Source: Bdellovibrionales bacterium
GTDB lineage: Bacteria > Bdellovibrionota > UBA1018 > CAIMNF01
Assembly: GCA_947502835.1 (NCBI GenBank)
Contig: CANNBJ010000003.1
Coordinates: 186,001 to 250,000, forward strand
Length of the DNA stretch: 64,000 nucleotides
Direction: 5' to 3'
Shown here: positions 33,749 to 49,247 of the stretch, in pieces
Numbering within the stretch: the stretch's first letter is position 1
Layout: the number at the start of each line of letters is the position of its first letter
Made by a program: the position numbers and the translations under genes
Notes under the pieces: model-generated
What the model saw: only the letters and a program-made list of their open reading frames with translations
Databases searched by the model: none
Told to the model about the DNA's origin: nothing

Positions 33749-33952
33749 GACGTAGCCTTTTTGAGTGAGCATGGGGCTAGAGGCTGAGGAGATAATTCCC
33801 TGAATTCTTGGGAGTTTGGCCGACTCTTGCGAGGCAGGACTGCCGAAAGCAAGGCCGCAGGATGCGGCTTGGAGGTCAAACTCCCAAGAATTCAGGGAAA
33901 TTGCCGCCTGAGGTTTTCATCCCATGCTCATTCAAAGACGCCACTTTACAAA
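33749..33952 (+). repeat. Structured inverted-repeat element, copy A
   Basis: Outer inverted repeats are CTTTTTGAGTGAGCATGGG (33757-33775) and CCCATGCTCATTCAAAG (33921-33937). Inside, a 26-bp palindrome (33796-33821 with 33874-33899) pairs at 25 of 26 positions. The core (33822-33873) includes the hairpin GCCGCAGGATGCGGC. Same architecture as copies B and C near 47.3 kb but with different inner-arm sequence. With copy D it fills the gap between 33625 and the rpmI promoter. Confidence 0.75.
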
Positions 33953-43664: not shown

Positions 43665-44837
43665 ATGAACCTTGGATTGGTGCTTACGGGCGGAGGAGCC
43701 CGCGCTGCATATCAAGTGGGAGTCCTGAGAGCGATTGCCGAAATCTCACAGTCGAAGGAAACCCCGTTCAACGTGATTTCGGGAGTCTCCGCGGGTGCGA
43801 TTAATGCCGCCTATTTGATGTCGCGAGCGGACCAATTCCAGATTGCAACCAGAGGGCTCTGGGATTTGTGGACCGGTCTCCATTCAGAGAGGGTGTATCG
43901 TACCGATCCCGCATCCATCGCATCTTTGGGCTCAAAATGGCTGACCACGGTGGGGATGGGAGGGCTCTTCAGTCAAAAGCGTGCGAATCATCTCCTCAGC
44001 ACCGAGCCGCTGCGGGAACTCCTGGGGAACGAGTTGGCGCTCGAAAAAATTCCGGAGTTCATCAAGAACAAGACGCTCCGGGGTGTCGCCTTCTCTGCCA
44101 CGAATTACCTCACGGGAACAGCGATCACATTTTTTGATGGTGATGCATCGATTGCGAACTGGGTTCGCTCCACACGCATCGGTGTCCGGACCAATGTGAC
44201 ACTCGATCATGTCATGGCATCAAGCGCCATTCCCGTGTTTTTTCCCCCGGCCCGAATTGAGGGAGCATTGTATGGAGACGGCTGCATTCGGCTGACCTCG
44301 CCGGTGAGTCCTGCGATCCACCTCGGAGCCGACCGGATTCTCTGCATTGGAATCCGCTATTTCCGGAGCGAGGAACAGACTGTTGAACTCAATCGGACTC
44401 TCAAGCGGGATGATTTGTCGATCGCCGAAATCGGCGGAGTTCTCCTCAATGCGGTTTTCCTGGACTCCCTGGAAACCGACATTGAACGATTGGAGCGAAT
44501 CAATCGAACCTTGTCGCTCATGACCGAGGAGCAGAAAAGCAAGATGGCATCGCCATTGAAGAGCATCCCCGTCATGGCACTGCGGCCGAGCCAGGATCTA
44601 GGGCAGCTTGCACAGGGGACCTTGAAGGAATTCCCCGGATTGATCCGTTTTCTGTTGCGAGGGGTGGGAGCAAAAGAGGACAAGGGCTGGGATCTCGTTT
44701 CTTACTTGGCCTTTGAGAAGGCCTATACGCAACAGCTGGCGGAACTCGGATACACCGACACGATTCGGAAGAAGGAATCAGTGCTTGAGTTTCTCTTTGG
44801 GGATCCCTCTCGAGTGCAAACGGAACTGACACGATGA
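43665..44837 (+). CDS. Patatin-like phospholipase (NTE family)
   Basis: 390 residues, Ser-Asp dyad lipid acyl hydrolase. The oxyanion loop GGGARAAYQVG (9-19), nucleophile elbow GVSAGAIN (S42) and the Asp in YGDGCIRLTSPVSPAIHLGADRIL are visible; the last carries DGC where DGG is commoner. The C-terminal third (about 250-390) is a helical extension. I start at the ATG at 43665 because of the -10 box 6 bases upstream and the motif position. No signal peptide. Its 3' end overlaps the convergent gene by 60 bases. Confidence 0.88.
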   Translation: MNLGLVLTGGGARAAYQVGVLRAIAEISQSKETPFNVISGVSAGAINAAYLMSRADQFQIATRGLWDLWTGLHSERVYRTDPASIASLGSKWLTTVGMGGLFSQKRANHLLSTEPLRELLGNELALEKIPEFIKNKTLRGVAFSATNYLTGTAITFFDGDASIANWVRSTRIGVRTNVTLDHVMASSAIPVFFPPARIEGALYGDGCIRLTSPVSPAIHLGADRILCIGIRYFRSEEQTVELNRTLKRDDLSIAEIGGVLLNAVFLDSLETDIERLERINRTLSLMTEEQKSKMASPLKSIPVMALRPSQDLGQLAQGTLKEFPGLIRFLLRGVGAKEDKGWDLVSYLAFEKAYTQQLAELGYTDTIRKKESVLEFLFGDPSRVQTELTR

Positions 44838-47141
44838 TCCGTATCCCCAGCTTTTTTTCCGTCGAGTGAATCCCAGCGTGAACGCCATGGGAGTACCCGG
44901 ATCACCCCACTTCGAGGTGAGACGATGGATCAGGGGATCTTCAGAATCCGGGTCCAGAACGATTTGGTTTTTTCCGGCATGGAAGCGTCCTTCCCGATCG
45001 AAGAGGACCAGCTCGACTGCTGAACGCTGACGGCGTTCGGTCAGGGGGGTGAGCGAGAAGAAAAGGAATCCCGGTGTATCACTCAATTCAAAATCAAGTG
45101 CGATTCGACCGTCGGGAAGTGAAGAGCACTCCAGATTGACCACGCGGGCGTCCGGATCCTGCACGGATTTCAATCCCTCCATTCGGGTGGTGGGTGCTGC
45201 ATCCGTCTCGAGGAACGCGGTTTCAAGGGGAGTGATCTTGTGGCCCCTTTGCTGAATGTTCCCGAAAGCAGGATTCTGCGCCACAAGAAATTGTTCCATT
45301 GAGTCTTTCGGAACATGCAGCTTGAAGAGGTCCATCAGTTCCCGGGTGCGGTTTCGGTTCGAGAGGAGACGCTGCAGGATCGAGTGGAGGTCATCCGCAT
45401 TTCCCGTTTCGATGGCAGCTCTCATTTTCGGAAAATCCTCTTCTTGAAGTTCCAGTTTGTTCTTTTTCGCAAACGAAAGGATGCGTGAGGGGTCTTGATT
45501 GAGCCAGGTTTGGAAGCCGTCTTGATCGAGAGTAAATCCGAAATAAAACGAACTTCGGCCGTACCAGGCGCGTCGCCCCTTGCTGTGCCCCGAGGTCGGG
45601 ATTGTTTCTTCAGGGAAGTCCGGGAAAAGGGATTCCCGTTCAAAAAAACCACCGATCTCCGCGGTGTAGGAATTCAATTCGCGAGGAGTGGTCGAAGAAT
45701 CCTCAATCGAGTTTTCGGCAATGATGAGCAGGGATCCGGGTTCCGAGTTTCGAAACCCGTCCTTGTCCATCAAAAGGGAGATGCGTTTGGAGATCGATTC
45801 GGAAGATCCAAAGAGCGCATTGTGTTGGATTGTCTTTCGCGAGGCGGTCCGGAAAAGATGACGGCTTCCACCGGGGAGTTTTACCTCGGTTTCAATCGAG
45901 TCCTCCGAGCGGTCCTGACGTCGATTCAAAAACAGGCTGATCGTTGAGCCGTTGGTTCGAGTCCAGTTCAGATGATCCGTGGCCCGGTCATAGAGGCGGG
46001 TTACGCTTGGATGGGGATGGTCCGCATCCATCCTGGCCAAATCCTCTGACAGGACCAGGGTTCCAAGAACCGCCTTGTGAAAGGCCTCGCGGCCGGAAGC
46101 GCTTTCCAGGTCATAGCGGTAGGCCACATCGATCTCTTTTTGATGGAAACGGGAGACCTCGAAGAAAAAGGGGATGATTTGGGTGCTCAGGTTTCCAAGT
46201 TGAAGCTGAAAAGAGGTGTCCTTGAACAGGAAGATCCCCTGAAACACATTCCGCCAATCAAGACCCGCATTGATTCTGAGTGAGGAGCCCAAGCCGCGGA
46301 TGCGGCTCACCCGAACCTTTGCGTGCCGTTCATCCTCCTTCATGACCGAGACTTCAAATTCCCCGTCCAAGTGAGTTTCGATCGCGGTATTGGCCCCGAA
46401 ATAAAGGTCGGTCGAGGGAATGACCTGCCAGCCAAAGGTGCCTCGGAAGCCGACTCTTCCCGTGAGATTGTATGCAATGACTTCTCCTTCCTTCATTTTT
46501 CGAAGATCACTTCGGGAAAGTGGCATTCGAAACGGAAGCGTGAAGGGGTTCAAGATGTTCTTGAGTTTCGCAGTGAGATTGGGATTCAGGCTGAGCGCGC
46601 TCAGGTAGGGATTGAGTTCGGTGATGTCCTCAGTGCCCGGTGGCACGGGGTCAGGCCCCGGTTCGGGAAGCTTCCGGACCTCAAGGGGGGAGAGTTGCCG
46701 ATAGTTCTTCCACTCAAGGACTCCTTGAATTCCGAAGCTCACACCAAAAAAAGGAAATGAAAACCCGGCCTCGTTTGGACCTGGATTGACCCGGTCCGTG
46801 CCGTATCCAATCAGATTGCTGCTCAGACGCAAGCGCATGCGATCGACCACAGTCCAGCTGCCAATGAGATCGTAGTTGTTGAACACATCGCGCGCTGTAC
46901 TCACATTGAGCGATGTGCTGCCGGTGAAGTTGTCGACAAAGATGTCAGAAGAGTTTTCTCCATCAAACAGGGCGCCTGTGAAGCGGGAGTTGAGATTCTC
47001 GGGTCTGCGGATTGCCCATTGGTAGAAACTCTCAGGCCAGGTTTTTACTTCGAGTTCAAGGGCAAGGCTGGGCGTCGGGCAAAGGATTCCCGCACTCGAA
47101 AGCAGCACGAGAAGGATGGTAAAGCTGGCCCCAAAACGCAT
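44778..47141 (-). CDS. Large secreted, probably outer-membrane-associated protein of unknown function
   Basis: 787 residues with a signal peptide (about 1-28, LALELE cleavage region). The N-terminal ~330 residues show alternating hydrophobic/aromatic strands and descriptions typical of beta-rich envelope proteins (NLIGYGTDRVNPG, YFGANTAIETHLDGEFEVSV). The middle has a charged region, and the C-terminus has a beta domain with two Cys. A barrel-like or porin-like fold is possible; no family is recognised. TATCTT lies 6 bases before the ATG. The last 60 bases overlap the patatin gene, so the final 20 residues could be read-through. Confidence 0.6.
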   Translation of the reverse strand: MRFGASFTILLVLLSSAGILCPTPSLALELEVKTWPESFYQWAIRRPENLNSRFTGALFDGENSSDIFVDNFTGSTSLNVSTARDVFNNYDLIGSWTVVDRMRLRLSSNLIGYGTDRVNPGPNEAGFSFPFFGVSFGIQGVLEWKNYRQLSPLEVRKLPEPGPDPVPPGTEDITELNPYLSALSLNPNLTAKLKNILNPFTLPFRMPLSRSDLRKMKEGEVIAYNLTGRVGFRGTFGWQVIPSTDLYFGANTAIETHLDGEFEVSVMKEDERHAKVRVSRIRGLGSSLRINAGLDWRNVFQGIFLFKDTSFQLQLGNLSTQIIPFFFEVSRFHQKEIDVAYRYDLESASGREAFHKAVLGTLVLSEDLARMDADHPHPSVTRLYDRATDHLNWTRTNGSTISLFLNRRQDRSEDSIETEVKLPGGSRHLFRTASRKTIQHNALFGSSESISKRISLLMDKDGFRNSEPGSLLIIAENSIEDSSTTPRELNSYTAEIGGFFERESLFPDFPEETIPTSGHSKGRRAWYGRSSFYFGFTLDQDGFQTWLNQDPSRILSFAKKNKLELQEEDFPKMRAAIETGNADDLHSILQRLLSNRNRTRELMDLFKLHVPKDSMEQFLVAQNPAFGNIQQRGHKITPLETAFLETDAAPTTRMEGLKSVQDPDARVVNLECSSLPDGRIALDFELSDTPGFLFFSLTPLTERRQRSAVELVLFDREGRFHAGKNQIVLDPDSEDPLIHRLTSKWGDPGTPMAFTLGFTRRKKSWGYGSSCQFRLHSRGIPKEKLKH

Positions 47142-47181: not shown

Positions 47182-47380
47182 TAAACTGGCATCTTTGAGT
47201 GGGCACGGACTTCGAGAGCCGGAAGGAATCCCCTTTGATTTATGGGGGTTTAGCCTCCGAGCCGCGTCCTGCGGCCTCGCTTTCGTGAATCCGCACTCGC
47301 GAGAGTCGGCTCCCCCCCATCAATCCAAGGGGATCAATTCCGGTGCTCTGAATGCATGCCCACTCAAAGATGCCAGTTTA
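47182..47380 (-). repeat. Structured inverted-repeat element, copy B
   Basis: Terminal inverted repeats are identical over 24 bases (47182-47205 and 47357-47380). Inner arms at 47219-47255 and 47308-47343 are imperfectly complementary. The core (47256-47307) is the reverse complement of that in copies A and C, with GCCGCAGGACGCGGC as its hairpin. It lies between the large secreted gene and copy C. Confidence 0.8.
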
Positions 47381-47388
47381 TAAATCAC

Positions 47389-47590
47389 TTAAACCGGCCC
47401 CTTTGATTGGGCACGGACTTAAGCGGATTAGCCAGGAGCTATTTGGAATGATTGAGTTTTGGTCGACTCTCGCGAGACAGGATTGGCGCAAGCGAGGCCG
47501 CAGGATGCGGCTCGGAGACCAAAATTCAATCATTCCAAACAGCTTCTCGTGAGTCCATTGATGTTCGTGCCCACTCAAGGGGACCAGTTT
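47389..47590 (+). repeat. Structured inverted-repeat element, copy C
   Basis: Terminal repeats at 47391-47415 and 47566-47590 pair at 21 of 25 positions, and differ from copy B in both arms in a compensating way. The inner palindrome (47442-47464 with 47517-47539) matches at 22 of 23 positions. The core at 47465-47516 contains CTCTCGCGAGACAGG and GCCGCAGGATGCGGC. It starts 8 bases after copy B, in opposite orientation, and ends 13 bases before the prfC stop. Confidence 0.8.
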
Positions 47591-47603: not shown

Positions 47604-49247
47604 TTAAGACTTCTTTCGGGGCGCAGTGGTTAGGAACTGCAAGTTTTTCTGATTCTCAACTGCCCACCTCATCGCCCATTCACTCTTGAATAGGATCACG
47701 GGATTGTCATCGCGATCAAGCAGGCAACGGGAGTCCTCCCGGCGCTCAAAGACATCCGGATCGAGCCCTTCCCCGGTGATCCAGCGGGCATGGGTGTAGG
47801 GGAGCTTGTCGATCTTCACGTCCACCGCATATTCGGCTTTGAGTCTGTGCTGAAGAACCTCGAACTGAAGTGCTCCCACGGCTCCCAAAATTGGATCGCG
47901 ATCGCCGAAGCCCCGTTGCCGGTAGATCTGGACGACGCCTTCCTCGGAGAGTTGCTCAAGACCTTTTTGAAGCTGCTTTCGCTTCATGGGGTCAAGGATC
48001 ATGACGCTGGAAAAGTGTTCCGGCGAAAACGAGGGAACGCCTTGATACTCAAGCCCCTTCTTTTCGGTGATTGTATCCCCGATGCGCAAGGAGCCTTGAG
48101 TGTCGACCAGGCCGATCACATCCCCGGGCCAGGCCTCCTCGACCACCACGCGCTCTTGACCAAAAAAGCTCACCGGCATCGCAAGTTTCAGGTCTTTTTC
48201 GAGGCGTGAGTGTTTCACGATCATGTTGCGCGAGAAGTGGCCGGAACAAATGCGAATAAATGCCACGCGATCGCGGTGCGCGGGATCCATGTTTGCCTGG
48301 ATTTTGAAAACAAATGCGGAAAATTTTGGATCGGTGGGAGGTACCGGGACTTCGCCCGAGGTTCTCGGAGCCGGAGGAGGGGCAAGTTCGATGAAGCGAT
48401 TCAGGAATCGCTCGACTCCGAAATTGTTCATCGCGGATCCGAAGAACACCGGAGTCAATTCGCCCCGCAGGATCCGATCCCAATCAAACTCGTCGCCCGC
48501 GAGTTCCAGGAGTTCGAGTTCGGATTTGAATTGATCGTAGAGCTCTTTGGCCTCGAAGGTGTCGTTTCGTTCACCGCCGAGCGACTTCAGGAATTCGGGG
48601 TCATCCACTCCCGACATCTTTTTCGATTCAATTTTTTTGCCTTTGGATTCTTGATCTTTTTGAAAGAAATGGATTTCCCTGGATTGGCGGTCATACACGC
48701 CGCGGAAGCGGTCGCCCGAGCCGATCGGCCAAGTAAGTGGGCAGGAGCGAATTCCAAGAATCTTTTCGAGTTCATCGAGAAGATCCAGCGGTTCGCGCGA
48801 AGGACGGTCCATTTTGTTGATGAACGTAAAGATGGGAATTCCCCGCATGCGACAAACCTCGAAGAGTTTGCGTGTCTGGGGCTCGACCCCTTTGGCGGCA
48901 TCCATGAGCATCACCGCGGCGTCGGCTGCCATGAGGGTTCGGTAGGTGTCTTCGGAGAAGTCCTTGTGGCCCGGGGTATCGAGCAGATTGATGATTGTCC
49001 CGTTGTACTCAAACTGCAGAACTGAAGTGCTGATCGAGATTCCCCGCTGTTTTTCGATCTCCATCCAGTCCGAGGTGGTGTGGCGCTGATTCGCTTTTGC
49101 TCGAACCGCACCTGCCAAATGGATGGCGCCACCATAAAGCAGCAGTTTTTCGGTAAGCGTGGTCTTCCCTGCGTCCGGGTGGGAGATGATGGCAAAGGTC
49201 CGGCGACGCCTGACCTGGTCCTCGAGCTGATGAATAAAGTCCGACAC
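47604..49247 (-). CDS. prfC: Peptide chain release factor 3
   Basis: GTPase recycling RF1 and RF2 after termination. The 547 residues show the G domain (AIISHPDAGKTTLTEKLL, RGISISTSVLQFEY, DTPGHKDFSEDTYR, NKMDRPSREP) and the RF3 C-terminal domains (QVEVLQHRLKAEY-type region, VDVKIDKLPYTHARW). The start is GTG. No Shine-Dalgarno is evident; an extended -10-like TGCTACCAC lies 9 bases upstream. Confidence 0.95.
   Translation of the reverse strand: MSDFIHQLEDQVRRRRTFAIISHPDAGKTTLTEKLLLYGGAIHLAGAVRAKANQRHTTSDWMEIEKQRGISISTSVLQFEYNGTIINLLDTPGHKDFSEDTYRTLMAADAAVMLMDAAKGVEPQTRKLFEVCRMRGIPIFTFINKMDRPSREPLDLLDELEKILGIRSCPLTWPIGSGDRFRGVYDRQSREIHFFQKDQESKGKKIESKKMSGVDDPEFLKSLGGERNDTFEAKELYDQFKSELELLELAGDEFDWDRILRGELTPVFFGSAMNNFGVERFLNRFIELAPPPAPRTSGEVPVPPTDPKFSAFVFKIQANMDPAHRDRVAFIRICSGHFSRNMIVKHSRLEKDLKLAMPVSFFGQERVVVEEAWPGDVIGLVDTQGSLRIGDTITEKKGLEYQGVPSFSPEHFSSVMILDPMKRKQLQKGLEQLSEEGVVQIYRQRGFGDRDPILGAVGALQFEVLQHRLKAEYAVDVKIDKLPYTHARWITGEGLDPDVFERREDSRCLLDRDDNPVILFKSEWAMRWAVENQKNLQFLTTAPRKKS

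Follow-up and report, generated by a model that had tools for sequence, protein, structure and literature searches.

MITEs are usually regarded as inert. ERIC and QMITE2 elements are found in 3' regions (PMC10969869, PMC5896051), and some QMITE copies of Coxiella burnetii yield sRNAs (PMC5896051). Among regulatory RNAs with GGA motifs, the repeats of CsrB carry CAGGA(U/A/C)G within hairpin loops, and the SELEX consensus of CsrA is RUACARGGAUGU (PMC7652899). TwoAYGGAY RNA (Rfam RF01731) has, by its name, two AYGGAY sites.

The repeat family described here, two copies of which (B and C) stand side by side in the window (the whole stretch of 64,000 nucleotides analysed), resembles each of these systems in part. 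Like QMITE1 and QMITE2 of Coxiella burnetii (PMC5896051), it is short, bounded by terminal inverted repeats (TIRs), present in dozens of copies and frequently located in 3' regions, and its linkage is kept between strains. Unlike them, it encloses a conserved three-way-junction module that is under purifying selection after insertion, its arms are copy-specific and compensating, and no target-site duplication was found. It shares with CsrB/CsrC and RsmX/Y/Z the presence of CAGGA(U/A/C)G-type GGA motifs in hairpin loops, here predicted from sequence; yet, while those systems gather many motifs in one RNA, each copy has two GGA hairpins on a long hairpin, is mobile and belongs to a set of about 40 loci. 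The copies of genome G039, which belongs to another family of the same order, recall TwoAYGGAY RNA by their AUGGAU loops, but the lineage is different and RF01731 gave no match in either Rfam scan (E up to 1). Finally, the copies are dispersed palindromes enriched at gene 3' ends, as are REP/BIME sequences with their RAYT, from which they differ in being 194-bp TIR elements that have their ends in common with an IS1-like insertion sequence (IS); a search for Y1 transposases returned no bona fide one.

Copies B and C sit between prfC (RF3) and the gene for a 787-aa protein (Table 1). Their common layout comprises terminal repeats of about 23-25 bp (AAACTGGCATCTTTGAGTGGGCA), an outer arm, an inner arm with near-perfect pairing over about 20-25 bp and a sequence that differs from copy to copy, and a tip of about 54 nt. 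The original prediction, made from the letters of the window, had described two head-to-head copies 8 bases apart. Their head-to-head arrangement and the opposite orientation of their cores were confirmed, but the outermost terminal repeats are 11 bases apart. The terminal repeats of copy B (outer letters AAACTGG...CCAGTTT), supposed to be identical over 24 bp, are so over 23 bp, the 24th base being different. The replacement of an AT pair in copy B by CC on one side and GG on the other in copy C was found as described, except that copy C's own terminal repeats are imperfect. The inner palindromes proved unrelated in sequence and self-complementary, inverted-repeat detection giving 74 nt at 78% in copy C and 67 nt at 82% in copy B, and the core motifs that had been noticed, GCCGC-RTCCT-GCGGC and CTCGC...GCGAG, were both present. 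When the GGA strand of copy B was folded, the GGA of hairpin A was only partly unpaired (probability 0.33-0.90). Near-identical relatives of copy C occur elsewhere in the genome, at G000:C7:94269, C6:171162 and C2:501211. Head-to-head pairs with the same relative orientation recur (window 47183-47590; L156, L158, L154, L026, L027, L028 and L029); in the window, the pair consists of a newer second copy placed beside an older one.

Table 1. Positions in the window of the three copies, their parts and the neighbouring genes
Feature	Positions	Strand	Basis or remark
Copy B, whole MITE-like element	47183..47379	(-) for the putative GGA-loop RNA	a terminal repeat at either end
Copy B, left terminal inverted repeat AAACTGGCATCTTTGAGTGGGCAC	47183..47206	(+)	matches 1.02-kb IS ends
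Copy B, right terminal inverted repeat	47356..47379	(-)	matched to IS ends
Copy B, core and inner stem (covariance model R1 unit)	47228..47331	(-)	E=5.5e-18, genome search
Copy B, hairpin B, GCCGC-AGGAC-GCGGC	47261..47275	(-)	sequence; GGA unpaired probability 1.0 in fold
Copy B, hairpin A, CTCGC/GCGAG stem, GAG/CGAAA internal loop, GGA near tip	47276..47303	(-)	sequence, RNAalifold consensus
Copy C, whole MITE-like element	47391..47590	(+) for the GGA strand	absent at G008 orthologous site
Copy C, core and inner stem (covariance model R1 unit)	47440..47544	(+)	E=1.9e-21, genome search
Copy C, hairpin A, loop GGAT at 47480-47483	47469..47496	(+)	sequence, fold
Copy C, hairpin B, GCCGC-AGGAT-GCGGC (CsrB-type CAGGAUG)	47497..47511	(+)	sequence; GGA unpaired probability 1.0
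Copy A, further member of the family (193 bp between terminal repeats)	33752..33944	(+)	core 33797-33901
prfC (downstream neighbour), peptide chain release factor 3	47604..49247	(-)	Pfam PF16658 RF3_C, 160 bits
Gene for 787-aa protein	44778..47141	(-)	no Pfam match

BLAST with the B/C pair found about 40 places in the genome of the window (G000; 2.73 Mb in 8 contigs), and a covariance model (R1) built from 34 copies matched 43 places, rather than only one or two, with E-values down to 4.5e-23, well outside what chance would give. Among 40 genomes searched, R1 also matched the congeners G011 (23 matches) and G008 (19), five further congeners with 1-5 matches each and, in the form of 28 diverged copies, G039; four congeners had none. 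In an even draw across the phylum, 8 of 154 genomes were matched at E<=1e-5. When GTDB species genomes were scanned with a pattern, the matches fell mainly in Bdellovibrionota MAGs, and about a dozen were scattered singly elsewhere. A spread outside Bdellovibrionota was rejected, as these isolated matches lack palindromic arms and the chance estimate is a couple of dozen. Rfam gave no match at the gathering score, the E-value mode returning only sub-threshold matches of miRNA type, to sX4 or overlapping tRNAs, and searches of the literature returned no description of the element. Some of the genomes that have this type also contain a second one, built on the same plan (GACTTTTTGAGCGAGCCAGGATGGCGAAAGCGAAAAGAACAGGATGTTCGTGGAG; L028:2485-2587, L151, L158:1681-1783, L050, L053, L060); in a MAFFT alignment across types, the 3' part was positioned inconsistently. 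Three copies have an extra hairpin inserted in or near hairpin A (L035:2087-2249, L028:2196-2323, L133:7084-7246). The copy clusters of L009, L020 and L137 adjoin genes that look, by eye, like AAA ATPases of the DUF4143 type.

A search with the terminal repeats alone revealed, in G000, G008 and G011, pairs about 1.02 kb apart, each enclosing an open frame of about 303 aa. The frames of G008 and G011 are 73-76% identical to that of G000, within which other full-length transposase copies are 75-78% identical. Because the ends of this IS (AACTGGCCTCTTTGAATGGGCATG) equal those of the element (about 22 bp matched), the TIR-bearing copies are MITEs of the resident, IS1-like insertion sequence. They are shorter than about 600 bp (mostly about 194 bp), contain no transposase, occur in many copies, share their TIRs with an IS and are polymorphic in their insertions, all of which are hallmarks of MITEs. 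No transposase gene was found inside or beside the copies examined. As for insertion polymorphism, the RF3 locus of G008 has a decayed copy B and no copy C, and G011 has, in its orthologous region, no counterpart of the elements at L009:1900 and L009:5385; at L009:2900, the alignment with G011 was too ambiguous for a presence/absence call. Some TIR-bounded elements lack a complete core (L041, L042, L209, L212). No target-site duplication was found in 41 candidate TIR pairs, four IS included (best 9-mer match 4.02, versus 4.22 in shuffled sequences). Such duplications can decay. The copies of G039 have heterogeneous ends that do not match this TIR. The claim that no described element has this layout has to be qualified: by its ends the element is of a known kind, a MITE of an IS1-like IS.

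The best NCBIfam match of the 303-aa transposase is to IS1 transposases (NF033558, E=1.9e-6), but it scores 28 bits versus a cut-off of 100, the IS measures about 1.02 kb and the 8-10-bp target duplications are missing. The protein has no Pfam match, and no relative was found in plasmid records. This only remotely IS1-like sequence, which is common in the order (L203 = G000:C4:87700-90000, L204, L205, L206), may represent an undescribed IS group. An origin of the REP/RAYT type was also considered and rejected, as the sole Y1-type gene scores 21.8 bits, below cut-off, and lies away from all copies. A protein that is Y1-transposase-like at sub-threshold level (L073:1375-2127, 20.7 bits) adjoins a gene that looks, by eye, MltA-like and is probably a domesticated remnant.

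Its identity as a MITE makes the dispersal of the element ordinary. What is not ordinary is the interior module, unrepresented in Rfam, which stays selected after the terminal repeats have decayed. Read on the GGA strand, the core has the shape of a three-way junction from which two hairpins with GGA in their loops project. The module runs in the order closing stem, CGACUC, hairpin A, hairpin B, GGAG, stem. Hairpin A has a GAG/CGAAA internal loop and a terminal loop usually containing GGA (GGAC, AGGAU, AUGGAU), and hairpin B a pentaloop that is usually AGGAN; a minority of loops B, those of the tRNA-Ser copies among them, have no GGA (ACGAU, AAGAU, AUGAU). Of 117 copies, 86 have GGA in both loops, 18 in loop A only, 9 in loop B only and 4 in neither, so that 113 keep at least one GGA loop; in G039 just 7 of 24 copies have both. 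The distance between the two GGA is 22-24 nt in most of the copies that allowed automatic scoring of both loops, and the loop GGA is mostly unpaired in predicted folds. Stems differ wholly between lineages; the letters of loops and junction persist.

For many copies, the intergenic site is shared by G000, G011 and G008, and the copies at such a site have locus-specific core variants in common, which argues against gene conversion between copies. Identity at orthologous sites was mostly 91-100% for the 54-nt core, 74-100% for the inner arm, 47-82% for the outer arm and 57-92% for the largely coding flanks, in a comparison that includes lower-scoring decayed or doubtful orthologues (the L029 comparisons, L146/L166 and L165). 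In nine orthologous pairs, 313 base pairs were unchanged; 12 double changes still paired and 1 was broken, and one-sided changes led to a standard or wobble pair in 13 cases and to a mismatch in 14. RNAalifold, applied to 34 copies, showed compensated change in 23 of 33 pairs.

Since compensation alone could stem from templated correction of palindromes, we examined the strand bias of G·U, a signature that such correction would not produce. Among the mismatches left in the 35 pairs nearest the core, G·U exceeded A·C when read on the GGA strand (207 versus 117), while the outer arms had no strand bias (189 versus 198), both counts being inflated by, and uncorrected for, relatedness; by column and with heavy columns dropped, the inner G·U and A·C were 21 versus 7, again uncorrected. 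The pattern suggests that, within the inner unit but not beyond it, the GGA strand folds as a single strand. The original prediction that the fold is selected is thus upheld for the core and the inner stem of about 20 bp, through core conservation, compensation and the strand-asymmetric G-U, but not for the outer arms, in which mismatches show no strand bias. It had offered DNA cruciform or RNA as the form of this fold; the bias towards G-U on the GGA strand makes RNA likelier than a two-strand cruciform, as far as can be judged from sequence. One orthologous element is inverted between two congeners (L133 and L155), with one compensated pair changed.

In L038 and L047 (G000 and G009), beside tRNA-Ser(UGA), the far arm holds an inverted copy of the tRNA 3' end, and direct reading of the far side of L055, GCTTTGTTCCAAGTTCGA, showed a stretch of the neighbouring tRNA-Arg copied in inverted form. 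No inverted flank copy above shuffles was found in L048, L061 and L023. At least some outer arms thus appear to be inverted copies of the flank, which would explain how arms can be unrelated between copies yet self-complementary. A shared origin of the TIRs, joined in some copies by inverted flank copying, can account for the outer arms.

With simple ORF calling and orthologues counted separately, TIR-bearing copies were found between convergent genes in 5 cases and divergent genes in 8, TIR-less copies in 16 and 5, G039 copies in 16 and 1, and others in 6 and 1. Old copies are kept at gene 3' ends. Where neighbouring genes are in tandem, the GGA strand was sense in 21 cases and antisense in 36 (orientation counts are inflated because copies are related), and it was antisense to the tRNA in 5 of 5 cases next to tRNA-Ser, tRNA-Pro and tRNA-Arg. 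Nothing speaks more strongly than this antisense excess against the GGA loops having a simple sense role in 3' UTRs; a separately transcribed RNA, a strand-neutral role and a role as ssDNA are all compatible with the strand counts. Elements lie directly downstream of tRNA-Ser(UGA), tRNA-Pro(CGG) and tRNA-Arg(CCT) in different species (L038, L047, L048, L055, L061).

All 40 genomes searched in the order have csrA, which, being universal, is useless as a marker of element-bearing genomes. CsrA of the congener G008 retains the RNA-binding residues L4 and R44. A FliW gene is close to csrA in this genome; FliW being an alternative antagonist, CsrA need not depend here on sponge RNAs. The most likely task of the module would be to show its pair of GGA loops to a CsrA dimer, a prediction that we regard as a real but tentative possibility. 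More doubtful is the larger proposal of an IS-mobilised, transposable RNA regulator, in which the two-GGA module would bind a CsrA dimer, transposition would seed binding or titrating sites at gene ends, and selection would keep them while the arms drift, maintaining pairing only.

We considered three other explanations of these data. The conserved pairing may be that of a plain MITE, a neutral palindrome whose arms are kept paired by quasi-palindrome correction, fold-back template switching or recent shared ancestry. The MITE ends are in keeping with this, as are the inverted tRNA 3'-end copies on the far hairpin side in L038 and L047 (also read in L055) and the absence of strand bias in the outer arms; templating would moreover yield double changes without intermediates. 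Yet it does not predict that a partly unpaired 54-nt core remains 91-100% identical at old sites where arms and flanks diverge, that the inner stem has a G-U bias on one strand, or that loops are conserved across families with unrelated stems, and it is the least probable of the three. The strong palindrome and the mobility could also mean that the element acts as DNA, its tip, on one strand or as a cruciform, being recognised by a recombinase, a transposase or a nucleoid protein, as REP is by RAYT. ssDNA folding also tolerates G-T, so that RNA and ssDNA are not told apart by the G-U bias; there is no sense-strand preference relative to neighbouring genes, and the core is inverted at the orthologous site of L133 and L155. 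The core is, however, unneeded for mobility, since there are core-less, TIR-only elements (L041, L209, L212) and the IS itself has no core. Furthermore, the core outlasts the TIRs at old sites, and the one Y1-type gene that was found scores below threshold and is distant from the copies. We hold recognition as DNA to be quite unlikely.

A strand-neutral element of 3' ends, in which the long hairpin would terminate or insulate convergent transcription or shield mRNA 3' ends, fits the excess of convergent over divergent sites (38 versus 7) among TIR-less, G039 and other copies, the copies directly downstream of tRNA genes, and the similar placing of ERIC and QMITE2 MITEs in 3' regions (PMC10969869, PMC5896051). 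A terminator, though, needs no conserved junction, GAG/CGAAA internal loop or GGA loops, and retention at 3' ends could just reflect harmless insertion there; this explanation seems to us unlikely, if the less so of the last two. Overall, we judge it probable that the family is a MITE spreading a selected structured RNA module, with GGA loops possibly bound by CsrA.

According to this MITE-and-module reading, the repeat would be a non-autonomous MITE of about 194 bp with the ends of the 1.02-kb IS, whose IS1-like transposase would act in trans to spread it; the shared ends and the new insertions are observed, and the action of the enzyme is what they suggest. Inside would lie a structured module of about 105 nt, read from the GGA strand and presumably RNA, made of a closing stem of about 20 bp, which may have any sequence if paired, and a three-way-junction tip with two hairpins, usually GGA-looped. 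The basis for this module is conservation, compensation and G-U bias. After insertion, copies near gene 3' ends would be retained and purifying selection would preserve the tip longer than the terminal repeats, in line with the pattern observed. Transcripts bearing the element may be bound or protected by CsrA, or may serve as local CsrA decoys. The arms would differ from copy to copy because pairing is kept while sequence is free, some outer arms apparently being inverted copies of flanking genes.

The family thus presents a MITE whose interior is under purifying selection at old sites, with a one-strand fold that is two-looped and CsrB-like, and which is absent from Rfam. It also makes a general question testable, namely what share of compensatory change in long bacterial palindromes results from selection and what share from templated correction, as the same elements combine a strand bias of G·U in their inner stem with its absence from their outer stem. 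If the module acts as RNA, mobile DNA would distribute a ready-made post-transcriptional control module in Bdellovibrionota.
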